Source: Deltaproteobacteria bacterium
GTDB lineage: Bacteria; Desulfobacterota; Desulfomonilia; UBA1062
Length of the DNA stretch: 64,000 bases
NCBI GenBank assembly: GCA_029547185.1
Contig: JAKPPU010000087.1
Span: 1-64,000, forward strand
Direction of reading: 5' to 3'
Shown here: piece after piece, positions 1 through 13,317 of the stretch
Position numbering within the stretch: position 1 is the stretch's first letter
Layout: each line of letters opens with the position of its first letter
Notes under the pieces: generated by a model
Told to the model about the DNA's origin: nothing
Database searches by the model: none
What the model saw: only the letters and a program-made list of their open reading frames with translations
Made by a program: the position numbers and the translations under genes

Positions 1-522
1 GCCGTCCTGTTCGCGCAGGGCGTCCGCCAGCTTCCGGATGACGGACAATGGCCAGCGGATCTCTCCGGCATGCTGCAGAGAAGCGAGGGAGCGCTCGACT
101 CTGTCGAGGTCCGAGAGACCGTCTTCGGGCTCCGGCCTTGCAACGTCGAGATGCACGATCCCGGACAGCGGCGAGAGGTCTGCCGCCCCGGGCGCCTCCC
201 AGCCTGCCGCATCGATGCCGTCGTCGAGGGAGGGTTCTCCTGCAGGCATGATCGATTCCGGGACCGTAATGGTGACGTCCTCGACGATGGCGGAAAGGCA
301 GGCATTCACGAGCCCGTCTGCAGGATCGTTCTCGACCGTCCCCGGTGCGGGCTTCGACTCGACCCTGCCGGCCGTTACCTGCACGAGGCATTTGCCGCAC
401 GTGCCTTTTCCGCCGCAGGGCAGGTCGATCATGACACGAGCGCGCCAGGCCGCATCGATCACGCCCGTGCCTGGGGCCACATCGAGCTGTGTCCCGCTGG
501 GGAGAAATGTCACCTTGGGCAT
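1..522 (-). CDS. acsV: Corrinoid activation protein (RACo/AcsV-like), partial at the 3' end
   Basis: This is the first 174 codons of a protein whose C-terminal part lies beyond the window. Translation shows an N-terminal plant-type [2Fe-2S] ferredoxin domain with Cys36, Cys42 and Cys45 (CGGKGTCGKC) and Cys75. In the RACo family this domain delivers electrons for ATP-driven reduction of inactive Co(II) corrinoid protein to Co(I), and an ASKHA ATPase domain follows; that part is not visible here. The ATG at 520-522 lies 4 bases after the acsC stop, so the gene is translationally linked to its presumed client, the corrinoid iron-sulfur protein. The ferredoxin motif is seen; assignment to RACo rather than another DUF4445-type activator rests on context. 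Confidence 0.85.
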   Translation of the reverse strand, partial: MPKVTFLPSGTQLDVAPGTGVIDAAWRARVMIDLPCGGKGTCGKCLVQVTAGRVESKPAPGTVENDPADGLVNACLSAIVEDVTITVPESIMPAGEPSLDDGIDAAGWEAPGAADLSPLSGIVHLDVARPEPEDGLSDLDRVERSLASLQHAGEIRWPLSVIRKLADALREQDG

Positions 523-526
523 ATGT

Positions 527-1867
527 TCAAACCACTATGTATGATTTGATGAAGCCCTCGAGGTCTGCCGCCTCCTCGGGCCCCACCAGGACCTTCCATC
601 CGGAGAGGCTGTCCTCGAGCTCCCCGCTTATCTGGGAGACGTATCCCGGGATCACGATCGTGCGCGTCCTGATCTTATCTTCGACGCCGTTTTCCCTGAT
701 GAACTTCGCGATCGTCGCGGCCGAGAACTTGCCCGCAGCCCAGGCCGTGAGCACGCTCATGCCCTCGCACTCCGGCACGGCGAGCCAGGCGCTGATGCCG
801 CTGTTCTCTATCTCGCCCGAGACGATGAAGAAGGTGAGCGAGAAGTTCGTGGTGACGAACACGGGTGAATCCGGCGTGGGCTCGCCGATCGCATAGAGCT
901 TCGGCTCCACCTGGATGGGCTTCTGGGGGTCGGTATAGATGTTGAGCCTAAGCGTCAGCAGGGTCGCGAGCTGCGCGGGATCGAAGCTCGGCAGCACGCA
1001 GATGCTCCCGTACTTCGTGATCTCGGTCACGGCCTCGGCCGTATCGTCCATGAGGCTTCCGGTCCCGACGAAGCGCAGGAACGGAAATCCGAGCGGCTTG
1101 AAATTGTCCCTGACGGCGGCACGCCGCGCAATCGTGTTCGTCTGGAGCCCTTCCGAGAGGGAGTTCGTCCCGAAGTGCAAGAAGATGTCCGTGAACCCGC
1201 CGTCGCGGAGCTTTGCCGCATGCCCGGCAAGGGTGTCGAGGTCGGGCGCGCTCAGAGCCAGGGCATGCCCCTGCTCCTTCACGACGGGCAGCAGGGCATT
1301 AATGGATTCCTCATCCCGGACGCAGACGATGCTGTGCGAGCCGGCAATCTTCGAGGCTGCTTCAATGAGCGCCTGCGTGCTCGGGCTCCTCAGGATAAGA
1401 GGCTTGCCCGTAGCTTTGTATGCCTTTTCCGCAAGGGAGACAAAGGCAGAGGCATCGTTCGAAAGCTGGGTCACGGCCGCCATTTCGATAGTGAGAGATT
1501 CGCCCACGCGCTCGAGCACATAGCCCTTCACGGCGTGGAGCGTCTCCTCGATCTTTTCCGGCGCATCGGTGTCGTTCACATTGATCGCGATGACGGTCCT
1601 GTTTACGAAGGTCTTGTCGTGGCGGTAGAGCACGAGCTCGCCGCCTGCTGTGATCTTCCTGTCGGGCCCGAGCGCGATCGACCTGACCGGCGGCTCGTTG
1701 GCGAGCCCGAGGACGCCTTTTGCCTCGTCCGAGGCATAGGGGCAGCCCGAGATGTCGGCTTTCTTCGAGGCGAGCTTCATGGCAAAGGCCAGGCAGGTGT
1801 TCGATCCGCACTCCTTGCAGTTCGTACCGGGAAGAAGCTTCTGTATCTGCAGTCCTGTCAGCGCCAC
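527..1867 (-). CDS. acsC: Corrinoid iron-sulfur protein large (gamma) subunit
   Basis: With AcsD this subunit forms the corrinoid protein that carries the methyl group from methyl-THF to acetyl-CoA synthase. Cys17, Cys20, Cys25 and Cys42 (motif CKECGSNTC plus a later GCPY) bind the N-terminal [4Fe-4S] cluster used to re-reduce cobalt. The start chosen is the GTG at 1865-1867, because a GGGAGG site lies 7 bases upstream and the product then begins ALTGLQIQKLLP and is 446 residues, the normal family length. A GTG at 1882 in the same frame would add five residues. The start overlaps the end of the acsB-acsD fusion by 10 bases, which indicates coupled translation. Confidence 0.95.
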   Translation of the reverse strand: MALTGLQIQKLLPGTNCKECGSNTCLAFAMKLASKKADISGCPYASDEAKGVLGLANEPPVRSIALGPDRKITAGGELVLYRHDKTFVNRTVIAINVNDTDAPEKIEETLHAVKGYVLERVGESLTIEMAAVTQLSNDASAFVSLAEKAYKATGKPLILRSPSTQALIEAASKIAGSHSIVCVRDEESINALLPVVKEQGHALALSAPDLDTLAGHAAKLRDGGFTDIFLHFGTNSLSEGLQTNTIARRAAVRDNFKPLGFPFLRFVGTGSLMDDTAEAVTEITKYGSICVLPSFDPAQLATLLTLRLNIYTDPQKPIQVEPKLYAIGEPTPDSPVFVTTNFSLTFFIVSGEIENSGISAWLAVPECEGMSVLTAWAAGKFSAATIAKFIRENGVEDKIRTRTIVIPGYVSQISGELEDSLSGWKVLVGPEEAADLEGFIKSYIVV

Positions 1868-4800
1868 GGCCTCGCCTCCCACAGGTTCGTAATGGTCTTC
1901 TTCAGTGCCGCACCGGCTTCAGGGTGGTACATGACCAGGATCGACGCACCGGCATAGAGCAGGGAGAGGGCGGTCGAGTACTCCCACAGGCTCGCCCTCT
2001 TCTCGAGGTCTCCCCAGGCCGGGAACTCCGACTCGAGAGCCTTCATCTCCTTGATCTTCGCGCATTCCTGTCCGGGGCTCACGATGATGGGCGAAGCGAG
2101 CATTTTGTCTCCACCGAGGCTCGTGAGCCGGATCCTCTCCATGACCGAGTAGGTGTACTCGATGCCGTACCCGATGGCGCTCGTGACCGGGTCGATCACG
2201 ATCCGCTCGAGCGGGATGTTCATGTTGGTGAGCAGGATGTTGAGCTGCTTGGCGATGTTCACGTCGATGGGGCTCTGGGCCACGATCGAATGTCCGTATG
2301 CCAGGGCGGCGCCGGCGATGGTCCGGTAGTTGTCCTGCTCGACCCAGGAGAGGAGGAGGTTCTCGCCTTCGCAGCCTCTCGCGATCTCCTTCATCACCTC
2401 GTTGTTCTTCTCGAAGTGGCTGTGGCCGGTGACGATGAGCGGCACGTCGACGGCATCGAGGATCGACTTCACGACCTCGAGGGCCCGCTCCGGGCTCGCG
2501 TTGCCCTTTTCCGGATGGGTGCCTTCGAGCCGTACGCTGATGAGGTCTGCCCCGTACTTCCCGACGCACACCTTTGCCATCTCGGCAGGGTCGTGGATGA
2601 GGTCGCCGTATGCTCTCCTCAGGACTTCCGGATACTTGTCGCTGACGCGATCGAAGACCTCCATGGCGACGAGGGGCCTGTTCGGCATCTCCCCTTCCCA
2701 GAAGTGGAAGGGCATCGACGTTTCTCCGCCTACGGTGAGGGTCCGTCCTCGCGTCCCTCCCTGCTCTTTCGTAGCGCCGAGGACCACCTCGCTGACGGCC
2801 TGCTCGCACTTCTCTTTCCTGACCGGGACCGACGCGATGGAGGCGATGCGCTCCCTCACGCTTTCCTTCTTTTCATCGGGAGCTTTTCCGCCCTGCCCTG
2901 CTGCCCTGGCAGCGAGAGCATCGGCCTTGAGCCCTGCGCCCGGGAACTTCTCGTTCAGGGCAGCGACGAGGTCGGTGACGATCTCGCTCGTGAGCCCCTG
3001 CCTGATCTCCTCCTTGATCTGGGAGATGAGCTCTGATTTGAGCTGCTCGATAAGGCCGGGCGGATACGCTCCATCGGTCTTCTTCACTGCGGGTGCAGGT
3101 TCGGCTGCGGTTTCCTGCGGCCTCTCCTGCGCCTTTGTCCGGGCAGGCTCGTCGTCCTGCCGGGCAAAGGCGGAAATGTCGCCCATCTCAAGCACGGGGT
3201 GCTTCACCTTCTCGAGGTAGGCCTTGATGTCGTTCGGGTCGATGGCGATCGACTCGTCCGGGATCTTGTCGAGGAGGTCCGGTGCGCCCTGCTCCTCAAA
3301 GCGCTTCTTCAGGTCTTCGCCGAGCGCATCCTTGAGGCTTCTGGTCATCCAGATGAGGCGCTTGTGGCCGCCCTCGGCAAAGAGGAACTTCCTCGAGGTG
3401 AGGAACACCTTGCCGCATCCCATGAAGCCGGGCGTCTGCTGGCCTCCGCCCACGCTGCCCGCGAGCGTCGAGAAGGTCATGCCGGCGGGCGTATCGCCGG
3501 TGTACTCGCGGTTGACCGCCATGATGCCGTTGCATTCGGGCACGTAGGAGCAGATCACCTCGAAGCACCCGCAGCTCGTCATGGGCCTGTCCATGATCGA
3601 GTAGGCGCACACGGAATCGACCGTCTTGTGGGAGTTGAGGTACACGTACTCGTCCACGCCGGTCCAGGTGCCCTTGACCGGATCGAGGCACGCACCCTTC
3701 TTCACGGGCTGGTTGGGCCCGGTCTCGTCGATCTCGTAGGCGGCCCTGGCGTCGAGCCAGTTGTAGGCCCCGCACAGGCCGAGGCGCTCGGGCGTGACCA
3801 CGCACACGTGGTTGGGCGCGAACGACTGGCAGAGCAGGCACGAGTAGAAGATCTCCACCGACTCGTCGGTCATCGACTCGAGCCTGCGGTTGCGCTCGAC
3901 GTAAGTGCTCCGCGCAATGACGAGCCTCTTTTCGACCTCCTCGAGGTCCGTGATGAGGGTGACCTTCACCTTGTCCACGATGGCCGGGTAGTTGCCGAGG
4001 AGCTTTGCATGGAGGATCTCGCCGTAGTGCCGGAGCCTCAATCCCTTGTCGAACCCGCTCTTCGAGATGCGCGTCCACACGATGTCTCTCTGCCCCATGT
4101 GCCAGATGCCCTCGGCGCCGTTGATGAGGTGGTGGATCTGGCGCTCGAGGATGGCCTCGAAGTCGGGCTGCATCTTCCTCCCCGCCACCTCCACCCAGAT
4201 CGAAAGCGGCAGGGCCGAGCCTTCCGGCACCTCATCCACATCAGGGCCGATGATGTCTATCTGACCATCTTCGATCTCGTCCATGCCGACCATGGTGACG
4301 AACTCGAAGGCGGGCGTGATGTTGCCGCCGAACTCGACCCTCGTGTCCTGCTTGCGGATGCGCTCGCCCTCGAAGGCAGGCCCGTAGGGCACGGGGATGG
4401 GCACCTTCGTTATCCTCACCTTGCAGCCTCTCACCTCGAGAGCCTTGTCGACCATGGTCTCGTAGGGCACGCTCGATACCACATGCTCGTAAGTGCAGAT
4501 GCCGGTGGGCAGGATTTGAGGAATGTCGGTATCCGCGATGACCGGGAAGCCGTAGTTGATGGCTCCGGCCGCGACAGCGTACTTGTCGGCGTCGACCTCG
4601 TCGAACGCGAGCACGAAGGCGAAGATGCGCTCCTTGTTGTACTTGAGGTTGGCTTTGTAGTCGCCCGGCTTCACGTTGCCGAAGGAGAGCGCCGAGCGGC
4701 TGGCGAAGCCGAGCGGGTAGATGAGGGCCGAGACGTCTTGACCGAAGGGCACGAGCCTCGATTCCCACCCGAGCTGGACCCCCTCTTCCTTGAGCTGCTC

Positions 4801-5349
4801 CGCGAACTGCCTGCCGTTGGTGGAGCCTGCCATGAACACGTAGATGTTCTTTTCCTGGAGCTCGCGGGCGATCTTCACCGCGATCTCGTTGGTGGGCGCT
4901 GCACCCGTGACCGCGGCGAAGCCGGGTGCGGTGCCGTCCACGAACTCGAGCCCGCGCTCGCGCATGATCACGTCATTGGCGGCCCCGAGCCAGATGCCGT
5001 TAACCGGATCGGGGCCGATGAGATACTTGCACGCCTCGATGATCTCGCAGGCAAAAAGCGTCGCCACCCCTGCATCGAGGGCATTGCCGAGGTACGGGAG
5101 CCAGACCTTCTCCGACGGCGGGGCCGGAAGCAGGGTCCTGGCACGGTCGAGGACCGGCTTGAGGTCACGGAGCGTCTCGACCTTTTCGCCCGTGAAGGAG
5201 TAGATCACGGGCAGGTAGTAGGCGGTGTCCGGAAAGGCTACCCGGCAGCCCTCGCCCTTCGCTTCGATTGCTTCGCGGAGCTTCGCCTCGGCGCGGGCCA
5301 CCCATTGGTAAGCCCCGTGGATCGCACTGCCGCAGATGAGCTTAGACAC
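1858..5349 (-). CDS. Acetyl-CoA synthase fused to the corrinoid protein small subunit (AcsB-AcsD)
   Basis: One uninterrupted frame encodes 1163 residues. Residues 1 to about 725 are acetyl-CoA synthase: Cys504, Cys507, Cys516 and Cys526 match the A-cluster [4Fe-4S] ligands, and Cys593-Gly-Cys595 match the distal nickel site. Residues about 726-845 are a Pro/Ala/Lys-rich linker with a charged helical stretch. Residues about 846-1163 match the corrinoid protein small subunit AcsD, including VVLGATKEQGGTR and a TIM-barrel sequence to the end. In well-studied acetogens these are two proteins of about 730 and 310 residues. The GTG start at 5347-5349 has AGGAGGGAG upstream. It overlaps cooS by 8 bases and acsC by 10. 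The fusion could tether the methyl donor to the A-cluster (inference). Confidence 0.93.
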   Translation of the reverse strand: MSKLICGSAIHGAYQWVARAEAKLREAIEAKGEGCRVAFPDTAYYLPVIYSFTGEKVETLRDLKPVLDRARTLLPAPPSEKVWLPYLGNALDAGVATLFACEIIEACKYLIGPDPVNGIWLGAANDVIMRERGLEFVDGTAPGFAAVTGAAPTNEIAVKIARELQEKNIYVFMAGSTNGRQFAEQLKEEGVQLGWESRLVPFGQDVSALIYPLGFASRSALSFGNVKPGDYKANLKYNKERIFAFVLAFDEVDADKYAVAAGAINYGFPVIADTDIPQILPTGICTYEHVVSSVPYETMVDKALEVRGCKVRITKVPIPVPYGPAFEGERIRKQDTRVEFGGNITPAFEFVTMVGMDEIEDGQIDIIGPDVDEVPEGSALPLSIWVEVAGRKMQPDFEAILERQIHHLINGAEGIWHMGQRDIVWTRISKSGFDKGLRLRHYGEILHAKLLGNYPAIVDKVKVTLITDLEEVEKRLVIARSTYVERNRRLESMTDESVEIFYSCLLCQSFAPNHVCVVTPERLGLCGAYNWLDARAAYEIDETGPNQPVKKGACLDPVKGTWTGVDEYVYLNSHKTVDSVCAYSIMDRPMTSCGCFEVICSYVPECNGIMAVNREYTGDTPAGMTFSTLAGSVGGGQQTPGFMGCGKVFLTSRKFLFAEGGHKRLIWMTRSLKDALGEDLKKRFEEQGAPDLLDKIPDESIAIDPNDIKAYLEKVKHPVLEMGDISAFARQDDEPARTKAQERPQETAAEPAPAVKKTDGAYPPGLIEQLKSELISQIKEEIRQGLTSEIVTDLVAALNEKFPGAGLKADALAARAAGQGGKAPDEKKESVRERIASIASVPVRKEKCEQAVSEVVLGATKEQGGTRGRTLTVGGETSMPFHFWEGEMPNRPLVAMEVFDRVSDKYPEVLRRAYGDLIHDPAEMAKVCVGKYGADLISVRLEGTHPEKGNASPERALEVVKSILDAVDVPLIVTGHSHFEKNNEVMKEIARGCEGENLLLSWVEQDNYRTIAGAALAYGHSIVAQSPIDVNIAKQLNILLTNMNIPLERIVIDPVTSAIGYGIEYTYSVMERIRLTSLGGDKMLASPIIVSPGQECAKIKEMKALESEFPAWGDLEKRASLWEYSTALSLLYAGASILVMYHPEAGAALKKTITNLWEARPWR

Positions 5350-7291
5350 CGAGCTCCCTCCTGTCCTTCATGTCCATGAGCTTGCGCTCGGCCTTGCGGT
5401 TGATGCCGAGCCTTTCCCTGCGTTCATCGATGATCTGCAAAATCGCCTGCGCTGCCTCTCGTGGATCTTCATGGACATGGAACGACGCGCCGAACATCTC
5501 TTTCGCCTCAACGCCCAGGAACTTCACGACATTGTCGGAGCCGGACACGTAGAACGGATGTCCGAGGATGACGTCGATCCCGGAGGCCACGAAGTAGCAG
5601 CCGATGGCGATGGCCTTTTCGCTCATCCATTCCGGCGCAACGCCCACGACCGGCACGTCGGACAGGTCGTCCCCGAGGCCGCCTTCGGACACGATCTCGG
5701 TGGCTGCCTCGAGGAGGCGGGAGTTGTCCACGCAGCTCCCCATGTGGAGGACCGGCGGCATTCCGACAGCCTCGCATACCTCTTTGAGGCCGTGGCCTGC
5801 AAGCTGATAAGCGGCTTCGGGCGTGAGGTTGCCTTCCTTGGCCGAGGCAATGGCCGCGCACCCGGTCTTCAGCACGAGCACGTTCTCGGCAAGGAGCTCT
5901 TTCGTGAGCGTGTTGATGTAGGAGTCGAGCTTCGTCTTGGGGTTGTTGCATCCCACGATGCCCACGACCCCCCTGATGCGGCCCTGAATGATCGCGTCGT
6001 TGAGCGGCCTGAACGATGCGCGGTAGCTTCCGCCCAGCATGTACTTGATGCTCTCCACGGAAAAGCCTGCGACGAGCGGGCTCGAGTGCTGAGGGATGGC
6101 GACCTTCTTCGGGTCGCGGTTCCCGTAGTTGTCGATTGCCCGTTTGAGCAGACTCTTGGCTTCGTCATAAGCCCTGTCTGTATGGAAGGGTGCCGAAACC
6201 GCGCCTGCGGTCTTCGCGATCCCGCTCGTGGAGACGATCTCGGTGTGATACGCCTTTGCCACGTCCGGCAGCCCCGGCATGCAGCACTGGACGTCGATCA
6301 TCATCATCTCGACCGCGCCCGTGACGATGGCGAGCTCCTGCTGGAGAAAGTTGCCGGCGAGAGGTATCCCGTGGCGCATGAGGATCTCGTTGGCGGTGCA
6401 GCAGATGCCTGCGAGCGTGATGCCTTGCGCGCCTGCCTTTTTCGCATAATCCTTGATCTCGGGGTCGTTCGAGGCGGCCGCGAGCATCTCCGAGAGGGCG
6501 GGCTCGTGGCCGTGCACGAGGACGTTCACCGTTTCCTCGCGAAGGATGCCGAGGTTCGCGGTGCTCCTCACCGGGAAGGGCGTCCCGAAGAGGATGTCGG
6601 AGACCTGCGAGGCGATGCGGGAGCCGCCCCACCCGTCCGCAAGGGCGAGCCGGAACACGTGGAGGAGGACGTTCCTGTAATCGTGGTCGACCCCCATGTG
6701 GGTGCGGTGCATGGACTCGACCACCATCCGGTCGATGCCTGCCGGCGCGATCTCTCTCTTCTGCCACACGCCCTGGCGGCTTAAGGGCGCGAGCTTGAGG
6801 GTCTTCAAGGGCTCTTCCTGTGAGGTGAACTCGCCGATCATGAGCTCGGCCAGCCGAACGGCCAGGTCGCGAGCAGGGACGCCCTGCTCCTCGATCCCAT
6901 AGGACTTCGCGATCCTGCGAAGGGCCGGCTCGTCCTTGATCGCATATTCGCCGCCTTTGCCCTGACCGATCTTCCCGAGGAGAAGCACGAGGTGCCTGGC
7001 GTGGTCGGAGTGGGCCGCAGAGCCCCCTGCCACCTCGCGGAGAAAGTTGCGGGCAACGACAGTGTCCGCATCGGCGCCGCAGACGCCCTGCGGCGTCTTG
7101 TTCGTGATCCTGCATGGCCCCATGTGGCATATCCGGCAGCACAGGCCCTTCAATCCGAAGCCGCACTGGGCCCCCTGCCGATCCATGCGGAAAAAACTCA
7201 GGTCGACGCAGTCTGCCTCGGCCTTTCTGATCGCCTCGATGGAGGCGAGATCGCACGCCCTTTCTTCAGCCGGTTTCTGACTTTTTTCCAC
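5342..7291 (-). CDS. cooS: Ni-containing carbon monoxide dehydrogenase
   Basis: This 649-residue enzyme interconverts CO2 and CO and supplies CO to acetyl-CoA synthase. Visible ligands include Cys43 and Cys51 (D cluster), Cys52, Cys55, Cys60 and Cys71 (B cluster), and His262, Cys297, Cys336, Cys448, Cys478 and Cys520 (Ni-Fe-S C cluster), all spaced as in characterised bacterial CODHs. The length is normal. The GTG start overlaps the preceding cooC gene by 26 bases, and the stop overlaps the acsB-acsD start, so cooC, cooS and acsBD are translationally coupled. In acetogen nomenclature this would be acsA. Confidence 0.97.
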   Translation of the reverse strand: MEKSQKPAEERACDLASIEAIRKAEADCVDLSFFRMDRQGAQCGFGLKGLCCRICHMGPCRITNKTPQGVCGADADTVVARNFLREVAGGSAAHSDHARHLVLLLGKIGQGKGGEYAIKDEPALRRIAKSYGIEEQGVPARDLAVRLAELMIGEFTSQEEPLKTLKLAPLSRQGVWQKREIAPAGIDRMVVESMHRTHMGVDHDYRNVLLHVFRLALADGWGGSRIASQVSDILFGTPFPVRSTANLGILREETVNVLVHGHEPALSEMLAAASNDPEIKDYAKKAGAQGITLAGICCTANEILMRHGIPLAGNFLQQELAIVTGAVEMMMIDVQCCMPGLPDVAKAYHTEIVSTSGIAKTAGAVSAPFHTDRAYDEAKSLLKRAIDNYGNRDPKKVAIPQHSSPLVAGFSVESIKYMLGGSYRASFRPLNDAIIQGRIRGVVGIVGCNNPKTKLDSYINTLTKELLAENVLVLKTGCAAIASAKEGNLTPEAAYQLAGHGLKEVCEAVGMPPVLHMGSCVDNSRLLEAATEIVSEGGLGDDLSDVPVVGVAPEWMSEKAIAIGCYFVASGIDVILGHPFYVSGSDNVVKFLGVEAKEMFGASFHVHEDPREAAQAILQIIDERRERLGINRKAERKLMDMKDRRELGV

Positions 7292-8069
7292 GCACCTTCT
7301 CTCCTGCGAGATTCAATCGGGACACGAACCTCTTCATCCCGGACAGCACCGGGTTCGACATCTGAACCGTGTGAATGCCCTGCCCTGTCTCCGCTGCACG
7401 GGCGATCTCGTCATCGAACGGAAGCGTGACGAGACAGTCAGCCCCCATGTCCCGGATCATCCCGGTCGGGTCCTCCATCATCGAACCCTCCCTGACCAGG
7501 TTTATCACCACTGCCAGCGTCTCGTACTCGATTTCCATTTCCTTTGCAAGGCGATACAGCCTGCGTACCGTCTCGATCCCGCGCTTCGAGGGGTCGCCTG
7601 CGATCACGAGGAGGTTTATCTTTCGGTAAAGCCGCCGTGAGAGGTTCTCGAGGCCGGCCTCGTTGTCGATCACGATGAAGGGATATGCCTTCGAGAGCTC
7701 GGCGATCACGTCCCTGAACAGGCTGTTCGCATAGCAGTAGCAGCCCGGCCCTTCGGGCCGACCCATGGCAATGAGGTCGAAATCGTCTGCCTCGACGAGG
7801 CATTCGGCTATGCGGAGCTCGATGAGCTCTCTCTTCGAGATCCCGCCAGGCTGGCCTGCCCCGGCGTCCCTGCTCTCTTCCCGGATCTGCCCGACCGTCT
7901 TCTTCACCCGGACGTTCAATGCCTGGTCGAGGCAGGAGTTGGGGTCCGCGTCAACGGCCAAGACCGGGGCATGCCCTCCTTTGATGAGGCAGGCGATCAG
8001 AGAGGCGGCGATGGTTGTCTTGCCCGTCCCGCCCTTTCCCGTGATCGCGATGGTGTATGGGATATTCAA
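7266..8069 (-). CDS. cooC: CODH nickel-insertion ATPase (CooC type)
   Basis: This is a 267-residue MinD/ParA-fold ATPase with a deviant Walker A motif GKGGTGKTT at residues 11-19. The Cys110-Tyr-Cys112 pair is the metal-binding CxC signature of CooC. The family loads nickel into the C cluster of CODH or activates acetyl-CoA synthase. The start is a TTG at 8067-8069; no better in-frame start keeps the Walker motif. It sits immediately before cooS and overlaps it, so CODH is the likely client. The second CooC-like ATPase of the operon (9318-10085) has only moderate resemblance to it, suggesting division of labour between CODH and ACS. Confidence 0.92.
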   Translation of the reverse strand: MNIPYTIAITGKGGTGKTTIAASLIACLIKGGHAPVLAVDADPNSCLDQALNVRVKKTVGQIREESRDAGAGQPGGISKRELIELRIAECLVEADDFDLIAMGRPEGPGCYCYANSLFRDVIAELSKAYPFIVIDNEAGLENLSRRLYRKINLLVIAGDPSKRGIETVRRLYRLAKEMEIEYETLAVVINLVREGSMMEDPTGMIRDMGADCLVTLPFDDEIARAAETGQGIHTVQMSNPVLSGMKRFVSRLNLAGEKVRGKKSETG

Positions 8070-8086
8070 GGCTCACACGTTCCTTC

Positions 8087-9163
8087 TCAGAGCCCGGATG
8101 TCTCGCGAACGTGCGGGGAGAGCCTGCGGAGCATGTCGAAGACCGCCTCTGCATCGCTCTCTCCGAGCGAACCCGTGCCGCACGATGGCGTGATGAGCGA
8201 CTGTTCGAGGATGAGCTGCCGATCGATCCCTGTCTTCGATGCCAGGTTGGAGGCGAGGTCCATGAAGCGCCCGGCGAGGGAGGCGACCGTCTGCTCGCGG
8301 ATGGCGATCGAGGTGGGCACGATTCCCCAGGCAATGAGCCCGCCTGAGGTGATGAACCCCGATACCGCGTCCGGGTACAGGGCAATGGTCTCTCCGTAGC
8401 TGAAGGCGTCGAGGTTGATGAGATCGACCCCGGCATCGATGAGGATGGACCAGTCCGTATTTCCGCAGCAGTGCACGCCGGCGATCGCACTGTCGCTGTG
8501 CACGGCCTCGACGACCTCGGCGATGAGGCCGACCACCTCCTCGCGCTTGACCGAGATATAGGTCGAGGAGCCGAAGGCCGAGAGGATGGGCTCGTCGATG
8601 AAGCAGATGACCTTGTCCGCAAAGGGCGCAAACTTCCGGATCTGCCAGCGGCACTTCATGGCCAGCGCCTTGACGACGACATCGCGGAACTCTTCGTTGT
8701 AGTAGACCGCACGCTTGCTCTCGTCCGTGATGGTGAGCGCGAACGAGCACGGGCCCGTGGTCTGGACCTTGATGAAGGGATACTTCCTGCCTTCTTTCCT
8801 CAGACGGCTCTCGAACTCGGGGAGCCCTTTCGAGAACTCGCTGCTTATGGCCATTGCCGAGCAGTCGCCGCTCCCTTCTGAAGGGTCCATGGCAGCCATG
8901 TACGACTCGTAGAAGAGGGCGAAGTCTTCGGAGTAGTCGCCCGAGGTGTCGAAGTACATGCGCCCCTTGTCGCGGTCGATGACCGCGCGGGGCATGCCTT
9001 CGGAGTACTGGATCTCCATCTGCTCATTGAGCCCCTGCTTCGGAAGCTGCGGCCACAGGGGCGCGTCCGGAAGCGCCCCGAAAATGATGTCGAGCGCCTT
9101 GCCCACGTCTCTGTGGGGAAAGCTGCCGATGGCGGTTGCAATGCACTTTGTCTTGATTGTCAT
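8087..9163 (-). CDS. Core MetE-like (UROD/MetE superfamily) corrinoid-linked methyltransferase, MesB-type candidate
   Basis: The 358-residue protein has the catalytic barrel of cobalamin-independent methionine synthase without the N-terminal folate-binding half. It shows the zinc-type ligands His231 and Cys233 (HCCGN) and Cys328 (PSCGTG), plus the IDEP segment at 189-192. The third MetE ligand, Glu, appears replaced by Asp near 252. Core methionine synthases of the MesB family occur in anaerobes with the Wood-Ljungdahl pathway and are proposed to take methyl groups from the corrinoid iron-sulfur protein. Its place between two cooC genes upstream of acsBDC fits that role. A methylcobamide:thiol methyltransferase with another acceptor is an alternative. 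Confidence 0.72.
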   Translation of the reverse strand: MTIKTKCIATAIGSFPHRDVGKALDIIFGALPDAPLWPQLPKQGLNEQMEIQYSEGMPRAVIDRDKGRMYFDTSGDYSEDFALFYESYMAAMDPSEGSGDCSAMAISSEFSKGLPEFESRLRKEGRKYPFIKVQTTGPCSFALTITDESKRAVYYNEEFRDVVVKALAMKCRWQIRKFAPFADKVICFIDEPILSAFGSSTYISVKREEVVGLIAEVVEAVHSDSAIAGVHCCGNTDWSILIDAGVDLINLDAFSYGETIALYPDAVSGFITSGGLIAWGIVPTSIAIREQTVASLAGRFMDLASNLASKTGIDRQLILEQSLITPSCGTGSLGESDAEAVFDMLRRLSPHVRETSGL

Positions 9164-9317: not shown

Positions 9318-10085
9318 TCAGAGCAACTTCCCGGCCATGTCTTCGAAGAGCGCCAGAAGTGAATCGTCGAGATCATCGATCACCGACCTGCCGTCCCGGT
9401 CGTTTGCCAGGAGCGCCTCCGAGAACGGGATGAAGCCGAGGATCTCGCGGCCTGATACTGCCTGTCTGATGAGGTCTTCGTCGGCCTTCGACCTGAGCTT
9501 GTTGCCGATGATGAAAAGCTTCTCGATGCCGATCTCCTCCGCCATGGCCGAGATGCGGCGGAACGATTCGATGGAGCGCTGGCCCGGCTCGACCACGATG
9601 ATGAACGAGGTCACGCCCCGGGCGGTCGCCCGACCGATGTGCTCGATGCCGGGCTCCATGTCCATGAAGAGCGCCTCGCCCCGGTGCAGGACGAGATCCT
9701 GGACGAGCGAGCGCAGGAGCACGTTCTCCGGGCAGGCGCAGCCCGTGCCTCCGCCCTCGATCGCGCCTAGGACGAGGAGGTCGACGCCCTTGTGCCGATA
9801 GCTGTATTTCTCGGCGATATCCGCAACTTCGGGATTGATCCTGAAAATCTGACCGTACTGCTGCACCTTCGCGCCCGTGCGCTCCTCGATGAGCCTCTTC
9901 TGCCGTGCGATCGTGAGGATAGCCTTCTGGTCTGCAAGGGGGATGCCCAGGGCAGAGGCGAGGTTGGCGTCCGGGTCGGCGTCGATGGCGAGCACCTTCA
10001 TTCCTCTGCCGGCCGTGATCAGGGCGAGCGCCGCCGTGATCGTGGATTTCCCCACCCCGCCCTTTCCTGTCACTGCGGTTTTCAC
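9318..10085 (-). CDS. CooC/AcsF-type maturation ATPase
   Basis: This is a 255-residue MinD-fold ATPase. Walker A is GKGGVGKST at residues 7-15 and the CooC-type Cys116-Ala-Cys118 pair lies in GTGCACPEN. The GTG at 10083-10085 is chosen because it places the P-loop at the N terminus and follows the fhs stop by 10 bases; the frame stays open further upstream but that part lies inside fhs and is a shadow. In acetogens AcsF activates acetyl-CoA synthase with nickel, and CooC proteins activate CODH. Which client this copy serves cannot be read from sequence, but the other copy is fused by overlap to cooS, so ACS is a reasonable guess here. Confidence 0.88.
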   Translation of the reverse strand: MKTAVTGKGGVGKSTITAALALITAGRGMKVLAIDADPDANLASALGIPLADQKAILTIARQKRLIEERTGAKVQQYGQIFRINPEVADIAEKYSYRHKGVDLLVLGAIEGGGTGCACPENVLLRSLVQDLVLHRGEALFMDMEPGIEHIGRATARGVTSFIIVVEPGQRSIESFRRISAMAEEIGIEKLFIIGNKLRSKADEDLIRQAVSGREILGFIPFSEALLANDRDGRSVIDDLDDSLLALFEDMAGKLL

Positions 10086-10095
10086 GGGCCGTCTT

Positions 10096-11769
10096 TCAGC
10101 CGCTGATGCCGGTGATGTTTCCGTCATCGTCGATGTCGATGCCGTACGCTGCAGGGGCCTTCGAGAGCCCGGGCATGCGCAGGATCTCGCCGGTGATGGG
10201 GATGAGGAAGCCAGCGCCCGCCGCGATCTTGATCTCGCGGACCGTGACGATGAAGTTGCTCGGCAGCCCGAGCAGGGCCGGGTTGTCGGAGAGCGACTGC
10301 TGGGTCTTGGCGATGCAGACCGGGAGCTTGTCGTACCCAAATTTCTTGATGACGTCGAGGTTGCGCTTGGCGAGCGGCTGGTAGTCGACCGAGACGGCTC
10401 CGTAGATCTCGCTTGCAACGGTGAAGATCTTGTCCTCGACCGGAGCGTCCCAGTCGTAGAGCGGCCGGTACGTGCCGGTCGCCTCCCGGCAGAGACTGAC
10501 GGTCTTTTCCGCGAGTTCGATGCCGCCCTCGCCGCCCTTGTCGAAGATGTCGGCCGGCGCGATGTTCATGCCCTCGTCTTCCGCTGCTTTTACGACGGCG
10601 TCGATCTCCTCGTCCGTGTCGGACGTGAAGCGGTTCAGGGCGATGATGCACTCTATCCCGAACTTCGAGATGTTCTCGTAGTGCTTGCGCAGGTTCGCCA
10701 TGCCGAGAACGGCCAGGCGGGGGTTCGGAACGTGCAAATCCTCGCGGGGCACGCCGGCGTGGTACTTGAGCGCCCGCACCGTGGCTACGAGCACGACCAC
10801 CTTGGGGTTGAGCTCGCCGTAGCGCGCCACGATGTCGAAGAACTTCTCCGCCCCGAGGTCGAAGCCGAACCCGGCCTCGGTGACCACGTAATCCGCGAGC
10901 TTGAGCGCCAGGTCGGTGGCCATGATGCTGTTCGTCCCCTGCGCGATGTTGGCGAAGGGACCTCCGTGGAGGATGACGGGCACGCCCTCGGTCGTCTGCA
11001 CGAGGTTCGGCAGCAGGGCGTACTTGAGGAGCGACGTGACGGCGCCCTCGATCTTGAGGTCGCCGGCATGGACCGGCCTGCCGTCATAGGTGAAGGAGAG
11101 GAGGATGTTCCGGATCTTCTCTTTGAGCTCTTTGTAGGAGCGCGACAGGCACAGGATCGCCATGATCTCGCTCGACGGCACGATGTCGAACCCTGTCTCC
11201 CGGGGCACTCCGTTGATGGATCCGCCCAGGCCCACGACGATGTCCCTCAGGAACCGGTCGTTCATGTCCATGACCCGGCGCCAGGTGATCTTGCGCGGGT
11301 CGATGTTGAGCGGATTGCCGTGAAAGACCGAGTTGTCCAGGAGGGCTGCCAGGAGGTTGTGCGCGCTCTCGATCGCGTGGAAGTCGTTCGTGAAGTGGAG
11401 GTTGATGTCCTCCATGGGAAGGATGCGGGAGCGTCCGCCGCCCGTTGCGCCCCCCTTGATGCCGAAGACCGGGCCCAGCGACGGCTCACGCAGAGCCGCA
11501 ACTACGCTTTTTCCCAGCTTTGCCAGCGCCTGGGTGAGGCCTACGGAGACGGTTGTCTTGCCTTCCCCCGCAGGGGTGGGCGTCATGGCGGAGACGAGGA
11601 TGAGCGATGAGCCTTTCTTGCGCTCGAGCCTGCGGATCGCCTCGAGCCTGACCTTGGCCATGTAGCGGCCGTAGTACTCGAGATCGCCCTCCTTGAGCCC
11701 GACGGATGCCGCAATCTCCTGGATGGGTTTCATGCCCGTGCTTCCCTGATGCGTTTTTGTTTTCGCCAT
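10096..11769 (-). CDS. fhs: Formate-tetrahydrofolate ligase
   Basis: This 557-residue enzyme makes 10-formyl-THF from formate, THF and ATP, the second step of the methyl branch of the Wood-Ljungdahl pathway. The nucleotide-binding loop TPTPAGEGKTT is at residues 63-73, and the full-length family pattern continues to the end, including HGGPFANIAQGTNS and KYHAG. The ATG at 11767-11769 follows the stop of the ACT-domain gene by only 4 bases. The rest of the methyl branch (FolD, MetF, methyltransferase AcsE) is not in this window and may lie downstream of position 1. Confidence 0.97.
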   Translation of the reverse strand: MAKTKTHQGSTGMKPIQEIAASVGLKEGDLEYYGRYMAKVRLEAIRRLERKKGSSLILVSAMTPTPAGEGKTTVSVGLTQALAKLGKSVVAALREPSLGPVFGIKGGATGGGRSRILPMEDINLHFTNDFHAIESAHNLLAALLDNSVFHGNPLNIDPRKITWRRVMDMNDRFLRDIVVGLGGSINGVPRETGFDIVPSSEIMAILCLSRSYKELKEKIRNILLSFTYDGRPVHAGDLKIEGAVTSLLKYALLPNLVQTTEGVPVILHGGPFANIAQGTNSIMATDLALKLADYVVTEAGFGFDLGAEKFFDIVARYGELNPKVVVLVATVRALKYHAGVPREDLHVPNPRLAVLGMANLRKHYENISKFGIECIIALNRFTSDTDEEIDAVVKAAEDEGMNIAPADIFDKGGEGGIELAEKTVSLCREATGTYRPLYDWDAPVEDKIFTVASEIYGAVSVDYQPLAKRNLDVIKKFGYDKLPVCIAKTQQSLSDNPALLGLPSNFIVTVREIKIAAGAGFLIPITGEILRMPGLSKAPAAYGIDIDDDGNITGISG

Positions 11770-11773
11770 AATC

Positions 11774-12313
11774 TTACTTGCTGATCACTGCGTCGAATCT
11801 GATATCGATGTTGTACTCGTCGCTGATGCGTGAGAAATCGTTCTTGAGCTCGATGACCTTGACCGTCGGAGGAACCGAGAAGAAGCAGGTCATCTGGAAG
11901 ATGTTGGCGCCCGTGACCGGGTTGCTGTCCACGTTGCTCGACATGTCGTCGATGTTGATGCCCCTCGTGAACAGAACCTTGCAGATCTGATGGACGATCC
12001 CCGGGTGATCGAGGGAGGTGGCGAGGAGCTTGTAGGGGATCGAGGGCATCACCTCGCGGTGGGTGGGCGCCTTGGTCTTCCTCACGTGGATGTCGAGCCC
12101 GGTTTTCTTGCGCAGGCTGTCGAGCTCGCCGATGAACCGCTCGATGTCGTCGGTCAGCCCCGAGGTGAGGATGATCATGCCGAACTCGTTTCCGAGCACG
12201 CATCCCCGCGAGCGCTCGATGTTGATGCCCCGCGCGGTGAAGAACTCTGAAATCTCCTTTGCCAGGCCCGGCCTGTCAGGCCCCATGCATGAAAAAACGA
12301 CAAACGATCTCAT
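11774..12313 (-). CDS. Tandem ACT-domain protein (GcvR-like), first gene of the Wood-Ljungdahl operon
   Basis: The 179-residue protein consists of two ACT domains, the first starting FVVFSCMGPDRPGLAKEIS and the second near residue 94 (LLATSLDHPGIVHQI). This is the layout of GcvR, which controls glycine cleavage in E. coli by protein-protein contact rather than DNA binding. ACT domains usually sense amino acids such as glycine or serine. It is the promoter-proximal gene of the operon, 4 bases from fhs, so it may link one-carbon or glycine status to acetyl-CoA pathway expression or enzyme activity (inference). No DNA-binding or enzyme domain is visible. Confidence 0.85.
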   Translation of the reverse strand: MRSFVVFSCMGPDRPGLAKEISEFFTARGINIERSRGCVLGNEFGMIILTSGLTDDIERFIGELDSLRKKTGLDIHVRKTKAPTHREVMPSIPYKLLATSLDHPGIVHQICKVLFTRGINIDDMSSNVDSNPVTGANIFQMTCFFSVPPTVKVIELKNDFSRISDEYNIDIRFDAVISK

Positions 12314-12385
12314 AGATCAAGCTCCCTGATTTTCGTATTTCAGTACCAATCAGATTTTATAGCACATATCCATCCTGCACGTGCC

Positions 12386-12391
12386 TGTCAA
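12386..12391 (-). promoter_or_regulatory. Candidate -35 element for the Wood-Ljungdahl operon
   Basis: Read on the minus strand, a perfect TTGACA lies about 75 bases before the ACT gene start and directly after the mscS terminator hairpin. The best-spaced -10 hexamer (TATGTG, 17-base spacer) is poor, while a better TATAAA lies 24 bases away. The assignment is therefore tentative; the location between a terminator and the first operon gene is its main support. Confidence 0.35.
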
Positions 12392-12412
12392 GAAAAAGCC
12401 GTGGGCGGCTTT
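12392..12412 (-). terminator. Rho-independent terminator of the mscS gene
   Basis: On the minus strand the sequence AAAGCCG-CCCA-CGGCTTT forms a perfect 7-bp hairpin with a tetraloop and runs into TTCTT, giving a T-rich tail. It lies about 55 bases beyond the mscS stop, and separates that gene from the acetyl-CoA pathway operon. Confidence 0.7.
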
Positions 12413-12465
12413 CCTGAGGCCCGCAACGTACGGGAGAATATGAACTTTGAAAAGCTGACCTTCCC

Positions 12466-13317
12466 CTAGTTGTCGACCTTGCCCAGGCTCGCGGGAATGG
12501 TTCGTGCGCCCCCGTGATCGTAGACATGGATGTTCCGCTGCGGGACAGGCAGGGATATGCCCTGGCTGAAGAAGCGCCTGCTCCCTGTCTCGATGAGGTT
12601 GGAAGAGACGTCGGCGTAATCTTCGGTCTTCACCCAAGCCCTCACCTGGAAGACCATGCTCCCTTCCCTCATCTCCTTGAGGATGACTGCCGCCTCAGGA
12701 CTTGGGAGTATCCTCGAATCCCCTTTCACCACATCCCGCAGGCATGCCTTGACCTTGTCTATGTCGTTTCCGCATCCCACGGTGAAATCGACATCCACCC
12801 GCCTGGTCTTCTTTGCCGAGTAATTGATGATGTTGTCGCCCATAAGCTTGGCATTGGGGATGATGATCACCTTGTTGTCCACGGTCATGAGCGTGGTGGT
12901 GAACACCTCGATCTTCTCCACTGTTCCGGCCGTTCCGGCGCCCTCGATAAAATCCCCTGCCCTGAACGGCTTGAAAATGATCATGAGGAACCCGGCGGCG
13001 AAGTTCGCGAGCGACCCCTGCAGGGCCAGGCCGATGGCGAGGCCTGCCGCGCCGATGACGGCGATGAACGAGGTCGTCTGAATCCCGAGCTGGGCCATGG
13101 CCGCTATAACCACGAAGGTGACCACGGCGATGTAGCTCAAGTGCTCGGCAAAGGAGACGATGGTCGGGTCGACCTTTCTGCTGTTCAGGACCCGCCCGAT
13201 CAGGCTTTTCACCATCTTGGCGGCCCACCGCCCTGCGACGAGAATTACCAGCGCGGCAATGAGCTTGATCCCGTAAAAGGCTACCCACTCCTGGACCTTG
13301 AGCCATATGTCTTCCAT
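12466..13317 (-). CDS. mscS: Small-conductance mechanosensitive channel (MscS family)
   Basis: The 283-residue inner-membrane protein has three N-terminal membrane segments (about 15-35, 60-78 and 85-115). The third carries the Gly/Ala-packed pore helix (GAAGLAIGLALQGSLANFAA) followed by FKPFRAGDFI, both diagnostic of MscS. The C-terminal half is the cytoplasmic beta and alpha/beta cage. It would release solutes under hypo-osmotic shock. The ATG has GGAG 7 bases upstream. The length is close to E. coli MscS (286). It is a single-gene unit between a divergent lipoprotein gene and its own terminator. Confidence 0.95.
   Translation of the reverse strand: MEDIWLKVQEWVAFYGIKLIAALVILVAGRWAAKMVKSLIGRVLNSRKVDPTIVSFAEHLSYIAVVTFVVIAAMAQLGIQTTSFIAVIGAAGLAIGLALQGSLANFAAGFLMIIFKPFRAGDFIEGAGTAGTVEKIEVFTTTLMTVDNKVIIIPNAKLMGDNIINYSAKKTRRVDVDFTVGCGNDIDKVKACLRDVVKGDSRILPSPEAAVILKEMREGSMVFQVRAWVKTEDYADVSSNLIETGSRRFFSQGISLPVPQRNIHVYDHGGARTIPASLGKVDN

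Follow-up and report, generated by a model that had tools for sequence, protein, structure and literature searches.

A bacterial acetyl-CoA synthase joined in one chain to the corrinoid protein small subunit

In acetogens, the acetyl-CoA synthase (ACS) AcsB and AcsD, the small subunit of the corrinoid iron-sulfur protein (CoFeSP or CFeSP), are separate proteins, and the gene for AcsE clusters with acsBCD; PMC5039349 reports acsB to acsF clustered in all 14 acetogens examined. The archaeal acetyl-CoA decarbonylase/synthase (ACDS) complex also consists of separate subunits, with an ACS that lacks the A1 domain and a carbon monoxide dehydrogenase (CODH) of another type. It holds 8 ACS with 8 CFeSP, and methanogen ACS has a flexible C-terminal extension of about 75 amino acids, as stated in PMC11474084. 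How ACS meets its corrinoid partner has become visible only lately, in PDB entries 9fzy, 9fzz, and 9g00, each of which contains an ACS and a delta subunit. A complex of the ACS-CoFeSP type is cited in PMC12289521, which has an extended ACS conformation fit an AlphaFold3 model with CoFeSP bound, the small subunit contacting the ACS N-terminal domain. Here, we describe acsBD, a gene on the minus strand of a 64,000-nucleotide stretch of DNA from a Deltaproteobacteria bacterium (the window; positions 1 to 64,000 of contig JAKPPU010000087.1, assembly GCA_029547185.1), in which AcsB and AcsD are two parts of one chain.

The locus resembles the acetogen CODH/ACS in its catalytic domains, A-cluster cysteines, A1 domain, CooS-type CODH, and CooC, AcsC, and AcsV neighbors, but where acetogens have two proteins, the window encodes a single chain with a 116-residue linker. 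The likeness to the archaeal complex would be one of analogy: the stable association of ACS with the corrinoid protein may have its counterpart here in a gene fusion, and the window ACS carries the A1 domain that the archaeal ACS lacks.

A translational fusion of AcsB and AcsD

The gene and its parts are as follows.

1858..5349, minus strand: acsBD, fused acetyl-CoA synthase and corrinoid protein small subunit, 1163 amino acids, GTG start
3175..5349, minus strand: AcsB part, residues 1–725, with the A1 domain and six A-cluster cysteines (domain models, alignments)
2827..3174, minus strand: linker, residues 726–841, Ala/Glu/Lys/Pro-rich arms around a helix-like block
2935..3069, minus strand: conserved helix-like block, residues 761–805, candidate right-handed coiled coil (profile searches with controls)
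1861..2826, minus strand: AcsD part, residues 842–1163 (domain models)

In the open reading frame listing of the window, the acsBD frame runs through 1163 codons with no internal stop, and AGGAGG, a good ribosome-binding site, precedes the GTG by seven bases. Residues 10–724 match the curated AcsB model NF040764 with 1035.9 bits (cut-off 800), and PF18537, the AcsB N-terminal A1 domain, matches residues 22–110. The AcsD model NF003376 matches residues 842–1157 with 392.6 bits (cut-off 280), while the other AcsD/CdhD models stay under their cut-offs (for example, NF040759 WLP_AcsD, 259.9 against 430; TIGR00381, 234 against 252.9). Cysteines 504, 507, 516, 526, 593, and 595, which we take to be the A-cluster ligands, are invariant across 68 aligned fusions and align with cysteines of solved ACS chains in the PDB. 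The open frame and the model scores bear out a preliminary description of this DNA, which had seen a full AcsB with all six A-cluster cysteines and a full AcsD in a single frame. acsBD is a true translational fusion of a complete AcsB, a linker, and a complete AcsD, and the covalent link between the two parts predicts a fixed 1:1 ratio and a raised local concentration.

Scanning 84,980 species genomes yielded 177 matching stretches, of which 166 were relatives; the best 80 of the 166 were kept, a set that favors close kin because 86 relatives were left out and the search patterns were taken from the window protein. AcsB and AcsD share one open frame at 77 of these 80 loci, so the homologue search that the preliminary description had proposed found the same fusion, and it is very unlikely that a frameshift lies hidden in the gene. 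At L067 the frame is broken, and at L074 and L081 it runs into a contig edge. The linker has a coding-like G+C content at the three codon positions (0.68/0.48/0.76), and in 6 of 6 pairs tested, the codons of its helix-like block have a lower per-site rate of non-synonymous than of synonymous substitution. An assembly or sequencing artifact, be it a chimera or a lost stop codon, would draw on two facts: the window's contig starts inside an acsV-like gene, and nearly all relatives are metagenome assemblies. With the identical frame in 77 of 80 loci, we reject it and consider its probability negligible.

No second AcsD was found elsewhere in the window's genome (G000, a metagenome-assembled genome that is 96% complete), and no separate AcsD in any of the 20 other fusion-bearing genomes tested, so a second AcsD gene was rejected. 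Free AcsD might instead be released by cleavage after synthesis or be made from an internal start, and the complex would then work classically. We counted start codons in a region spanning the final ~30 codons of the linker and the initial ~12 of AcsD, across 92 frames, some of them duplicates. GTG or TTG occurs there in 67 frames, a frequency that chance would often give, but ATG occurs in only 10, and 22 contain no ATG, GTG, or TTG at all. A conserved internal start for AcsD, which the preliminary description had envisaged near position 2800, is not supported by these counts and was rejected; we regard a free AcsD from either source as very unlikely.

The linker and its conserved block

The window linker contains 21 Ala, 13 Glu, 10 Lys, and 8 Pro in its 116 residues. 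Its earlier description as a Lys/Pro/Ala-rich linker of about 120 residues holds for length and composition, with Glu to be added. The linker is not uniform, however: residues 761–805 make up a conserved helix-like block, which that description leaves unmentioned. A flexible tether is thus only half the picture. Linker length ranges from 60 to 210 residues with a median of 121 across 105 fused frames (duplicates included), and three linkers measure only 60–66 residues. Nearly all separate AcsB proteins end 1–3 residues beyond query residue 725, where the linker starts. Four separate AcsB proteins (L083, L085, L088, and L089) carry acidic C-terminal tails of 48–50 residues, the last of which is Trp.

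The consensus of the block is LKxxIxxEVxxExKxxxTxEIVxDIIxTLSxKFLG, and the alignment of the 68 fusions keeps consensus letters in the block and none in the arms. A block profile, trained on 68 sequences drawn from the same linker set, finds the block at E<1e-3 in 73 of 82 distinct linkers and more weakly in 2. There is no further copy in G000 at E≤10, and among the other proteins of the fetched loci nothing outside the fused group falls below E 1.5.

For a comparison with known folds, 28 of the 68 blocks were scanned against Pfam together with 28 reversed and 28 shuffled blocks (one draw) as controls. The VASP_tetra family matched 7 of the 28 blocks (best E 7.8e-5) and none of the reversed or shuffled ones; other families gave fewer and weaker matches in all three sets. 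Against the PDB, the block profile produced 22 matches at E≤10, which include VASP entries 1usd (0.52) and 1use (4.3) and the right-handed trimer 1tgg (5.3) and no chain of ACDS; the sole match of the reversed profile was 2kw3. The helical moment of the family profile peaks near 90 degrees per residue, a feature seen after the fact. The Ena/VASP tetramerization domain, a parallel right-handed tetramer according to PMC4721544, is likewise a short helix with hydrophobic residues every 3–4 positions; it differs in being eukaryotic, and the similarity of the block to it is weak and confined to the profile level. This likeness is most likely convergent. Taken together, the comparisons give at most moderate support to the candidate right-handed coiled coil.

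Several results weigh against this assignment: (i) the block is absent from 7 of the 82 distinct linkers; (ii) the window's own block matches no Pfam family, VASP_tetra included; (iii) HerA_C and Trigger_C match 4 and 3 of the 28 blocks, respectively (best E 0.0017), and single reversed and shuffled blocks reach 0.0013 and 0.0083 with other families; (iv) PDB chains that we take for chance matches outrank VASP, the best being 7c7y (0.0067); and (v) the helical moment of the window block at 100 degrees is equaled or exceeded by 3568 of 5000 shuffles.

Docking elements, too, commonly take the form of a short conserved helix flanked by disordered arms, and the block could be a peptide of this kind, binding CODH, AcsC, or a further protein of the operon, and not serve self-association. 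This proposal also fits the genomic position of CooS, which lies upstream of the fusion in 76 of the 79 fused frames with room to show it (AcsC, by the same strict rule, in 58 of 76). The resemblance of the block profile to homo-oligomeric coiled coils, which its reversed form does not share, speaks weakly against it, and we find a docking role rather doubtful compared with oligomerization through the block.

Operon content and a candidate methyltransferase in place of AcsE

The genes around acsBD are listed below.

1..522, minus strand: acsV-like gene for a corrinoid-protein activator, truncated to its N-terminal part at the contig start; in fused loci, its relatives follow acsC
527..1882, minus strand: acsC, overlapping the acsBD end (NF003195, 480.5 bits, cut-off 306)
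5342..7291, minus strand: acsA/cooS, CODH catalytic subunit of CooS type, overlapping the acsBD start (TIGR01702, 637.8 bits, cut-off 478)
7266..8069, minus strand: cooC-like ATPase (PF01656)
8087..9163, minus strand: MT8087, MetE/UroD-like putative zinc methyltransferase, H231-x-C233 and C328
9318..10088, minus strand: second CooC-like ATPase, the domain part of a longer open frame (9318-10418)
10096..11769, minus strand: fhs, formate-tetrahydrofolate ligase (domain models)

Upstream of acsBD, the same strand thus carries cooS, cooC, the MT8087 gene, the second CooC-like ATPase gene, and fhs. We take the product of 7266..8069 to be CooC, which serves nickel insertion, and that of 1..522 to be AcsV/RACo with a 2Fe-2S domain. 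Base 1 of the window is also base 1 of its contig and lies within the acsV-like gene, so the genes that follow the operon are out of view. The CODH is not of the CdhA type, since it scores 79.3 bits with TIGR00314 cdhA (cut-off 781.3) and passes the TIGR01702 cut-off. BLAST with the window proteins at the 44 fused loci of at least 12 kb found relatives of CooS and CooC at all 44, AcsC at 43, the second CooC at 41, MT8087 at 40, AcsV at 38, and fhs at 4. In G400, fhs is present as two adjoining frames (L184:2026-3240 and 3244-4266), possibly an assembly error or a split gene.

The fused loci depart from the acetogen arrangement in their methyltransferase gene. An AcsE profile (A5), built from five unfused operons, found AcsE at 0 of the 44 fused loci versus 34 of 40 unfused regions, which were hand-picked from searches of the window's phylum (395 genomes) and four other phyla; the first of these searches served for choosing loci and not for counting fusions. 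The distribution of MT8087 is the reverse, with 0 of the 40 unfused regions having it. It is also present at the contig-cut loci L074 and L081, whose AcsB belongs with the fused ones; at L081, no linker is visible. In whole genomes, the A5 profile scores at least 200 bits in all but one (G578) of 17 unfused genomes, and 6 of the other 16 had contributed rows to it. None of the 30 distinct fused genomes reaches this score (31 genome labels, G367 and G420 sharing match positions). In G000 and six other fused genomes, the profile has zero matches. Under nineteen genome labels, its matches fall in frames given as 600–1250 residues, taken for MetH on length alone; open-frame lengths can read past stops, so such long frames are not proof of MetH. 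The only PF00809 protein of G000 reads like FolP by its motif. At 96% completeness of this genome, a missed AcsE gene is possible.

All 49 aligned MT8087 rows share H231, C233, and C328, which make up a putative zinc-binding HXCXnC motif. The NCBIfam methionine synthase model PRK00957 matches 25 of 30 MT8087 members at E≤0.1 (weak; best 1.4e-10), and the MtbA model matches 18 of 30 (best 4.8e-5). Pfam gives weak matches only (MEDS in 4 of 30, best 0.012; none for the window protein), and no solved relative was found in the PDB at E≤0.1. A parallel is offered by the core-MetE of Dehalococcoides, a zinc methyltransferase for which PMC7005905 lists His215, Cys217, and Cys312, an HXCXnC motif with spacing equal to that of MT8087. 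The same paper describes Dehalococcoides as having neither acsE nor CODH, and proposes that its core-MetE takes methyl groups from CoFeSP. Two roles are conceivable for MT8087: it could take over from AcsE in loading the corrinoid protein, or it could pass the methyl group from that protein to a thiol.

A role of MT8087 as the replacement of AcsE has to be set against the following. MT8087 is lacking at four fused loci (L003, L039, L068, and L075, of which L068 begins at a contig start), and AcsE is lacking at six unfused regions (L210, L211, L213, L214, L219, and L229). The 200-bit line for AcsE was set after the scores were seen. Four fused genomes (G427, G428, G436, and G439) encode single AcsE relatives of ~270 residues with 144–168 bits, and three (G424, G431, and G435) weaker relatives of about 290 residues; these proteins could be substitutes, contrary to a clean absence of AcsE. 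All fused rows form one clade, so the association between the fusion, AcsE, and MT8087 may reflect a single event. Finally, MT8087 of the window scores 19.9 bits with the core-MetE model PRK00957, for which the cut-off is 258, and a thiol would be a better match for its zinc motif than tetrahydrofolate.

These last points bear on the alternative that MT8087 is a core methionine synthase, which would drain the methyl group of CoFeSP to homocysteine, as proposed for Dehalococcoides, acetyl-CoA perhaps being cleaved. The PRK00957 and MtbA matches and the motif spacing shared with another acsE-less system are in its favor, as is a relative of homocysteine S-methyltransferase found at 21 of the 44 fused loci and at none of the 40 unfused regions. 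The 21 loci include L029:241-1128 and L062:13500-15140 (the L062 protein was scanned and matches PF02574), and some of the genes stand directly before MT8087; as most sit near a locus edge, the count of 21 may be too low. The window operon, however, has the CODH that Dehalococcoides lacks according to PMC7005905, and MT8087 remains far below the PRK00957 family cut-off. We see this alternative as a real possibility, yet on balance doubtful, and continue with MT8087 as the likely methyl partner of the corrinoid protein.

Distribution of the fusion and a proposed mechanism

In a FastTree phylogeny of 156 AcsB rows, 75 of 75 fused rows fall on one branch with a support of 100. The one row inside it that is labeled unfused is L074, in which a linker and the beginning of AcsD are visible before the contig breaks off. 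The AcsB part is at least 65% identical to that of the window in the 77 fused loci versus at most 62.2% in separate AcsB. By record titles, fused loci carry the names of at least 15 phylum-level groups, some of which may be binning errors, as nearly all of these loci are metagenome assemblies. A search of 60 relatives of the window that was not steered by the fusion found it in 4 genomes, every one from the window's family, of which 24 genomes were sampled (3 of 8 in the genus; one fusion is cut by its contig), whereas class neighbors carry separate AcsB. Searches in four further phyla gave the following: in the phylum of L003 (Spirochaetota by title; 247 genomes), 30 genomes matched at all, with 11 fused and 15 separate AcsB, several of them incomplete or divided between contigs; only the centre genome fused among the matches listed for the phylum of L024 (Bacillota by title; 348 genomes) and for that of L014 (Planctomycetota; 246 genomes); and 6 fused, 1 broken frame, and 5 separate in the phylum of L005 (240 genomes). 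The clade-specific form suggested in the preliminary description is therefore one clade of ACS genes and not one of organisms, among which it is patchy over many phyla. A single origin followed by horizontal spread is probably the best fit.

Frame lengths given next to separate AcsB can read past stop codons, and the apparent long frames in G651, G729, G891, G892, G931, and G968 were rejected as ordinary separate genes; in G651, acsB and acsD are separate and acsE is nearby. Some operons contain two AcsB genes (L188:4568-6718 and 6981-9113; L190:4294-6432 and 10633-12786). We found no report of an AcsB-AcsD fusion in the literature searched; it may have been noticed earlier in the PNAS 2018 CODH/ACS survey or in databases. 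PMC6344411 refers to fused Ni-CODHs in a supplement.

AcsD is also tethered to other enzymes. In three sister-family genomes among the class neighbors of the window (G312, G406, and G410), AcsD, a linker, and the CODH catalytic subunit form one frame of 1108–1135 residues (L186:6890-10294, L196:4679-8002, and L197:3862-7245), adjoined by a separate acsB. An mthfr/acsD fusion is named among the abbreviations of PMC5016858. Both have in common with acsBD that AcsD is covalently joined to another pathway enzyme; the AcsD-CODH fusion differs in its partner and in having AcsD at the N-terminus. Its linker is Ala/Pro/Lys-rich and about 125–160 residues long. By eye, it has a block that looks shared; the acsBD block profile has no match to the L186 fusion, the one of the three covered by this search. 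We read the two fusions as convergence, and the tethering of AcsD to CODH as well as to ACS is the best argument that closeness itself is selected. Long C-terminal Ala/Pro/Lys-rich tails occur on separate AcsD proteins (L193:1151-2770, L194:1589-3208, and L195:734-2041), two of which run into charged repeats.

The fusion might, on the other hand, be a plain co-translational link that fixes the ratio of two proteins, with the block as a stiff spacer and the methyltransferase difference as unrelated lineage history. The seven linkers without a block and the three of 60–66 residues indicate that the block is dispensable in some lineages, and a single branch for all fused rows means that the fusion, the absence of AcsE, and MT8087 may share history without function. 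Such a link leaves unaccounted for the restraint on non-synonymous change in the block codons, the retention of a consensus in the block and not in the arms of the 68 fusions, and the tethering of AcsD to CODH. We judge it unlikely.

Combining these findings, we propose, as the rather probable reading, a CODH/ACS variant, probably spread horizontally, with the corrinoid protein leashed to ACS, perhaps oligomerized through the linker block, and exchanging methyl groups via MT8087 and not AcsE. The data show the fusion and its conservation, no other AcsD in the genomes searched, the conserved block, and the content of the operon; from these we infer the leash function, the helix, the oligomerization, the role of MT8087, and the direction of the pathway. 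The AcsB half, which carries the A-cluster, would dock on CODH through its A1 domain, and the AcsD half would pair with AcsC to form the corrinoid protein. The linker, which connects the C-terminus of ACS with the N-terminus of AcsD, would hold ACS and its carrier close together during the open-close cycle, and the A-cluster and the methyl-cobalt would then meet by a movement inside one assembly. The linker block would most likely be a small helical oligomerization element, a right-handed coiled coil, and bundling of three or four such blocks could cross-link CODH dimers with two ACS each into larger bodies, a possible bacterial counterpart of the archaeal ACDS complex. The methyl partner of the carrier would most likely be the neighboring MetE-like zinc protein MT8087 instead of AcsE.

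Only tentatively, and with less likelihood than not, could one go on to a separate line of the Wood-Ljungdahl carbonyl branch, in which right-handed coiled-coil linkers would join AcsBD chains into a bacterial megacomplex like ACDS, with one leashed carrier per ACS, and a new family of zinc methyltransferases, MT8087, would bring in or take away the methyl groups in the place of AcsE. What the window contains are known bacterial CODH/ACS domains in a new fused arrangement, with a possible new methyltransferase family attached. The leash of acsBD could allow the methyl-transfer state to be trapped within a single natural chain. Should MT8087 stand in for AcsE, many uncultured lineages would be misjudged by genome surveys that take acsE as the marker of the pathway.

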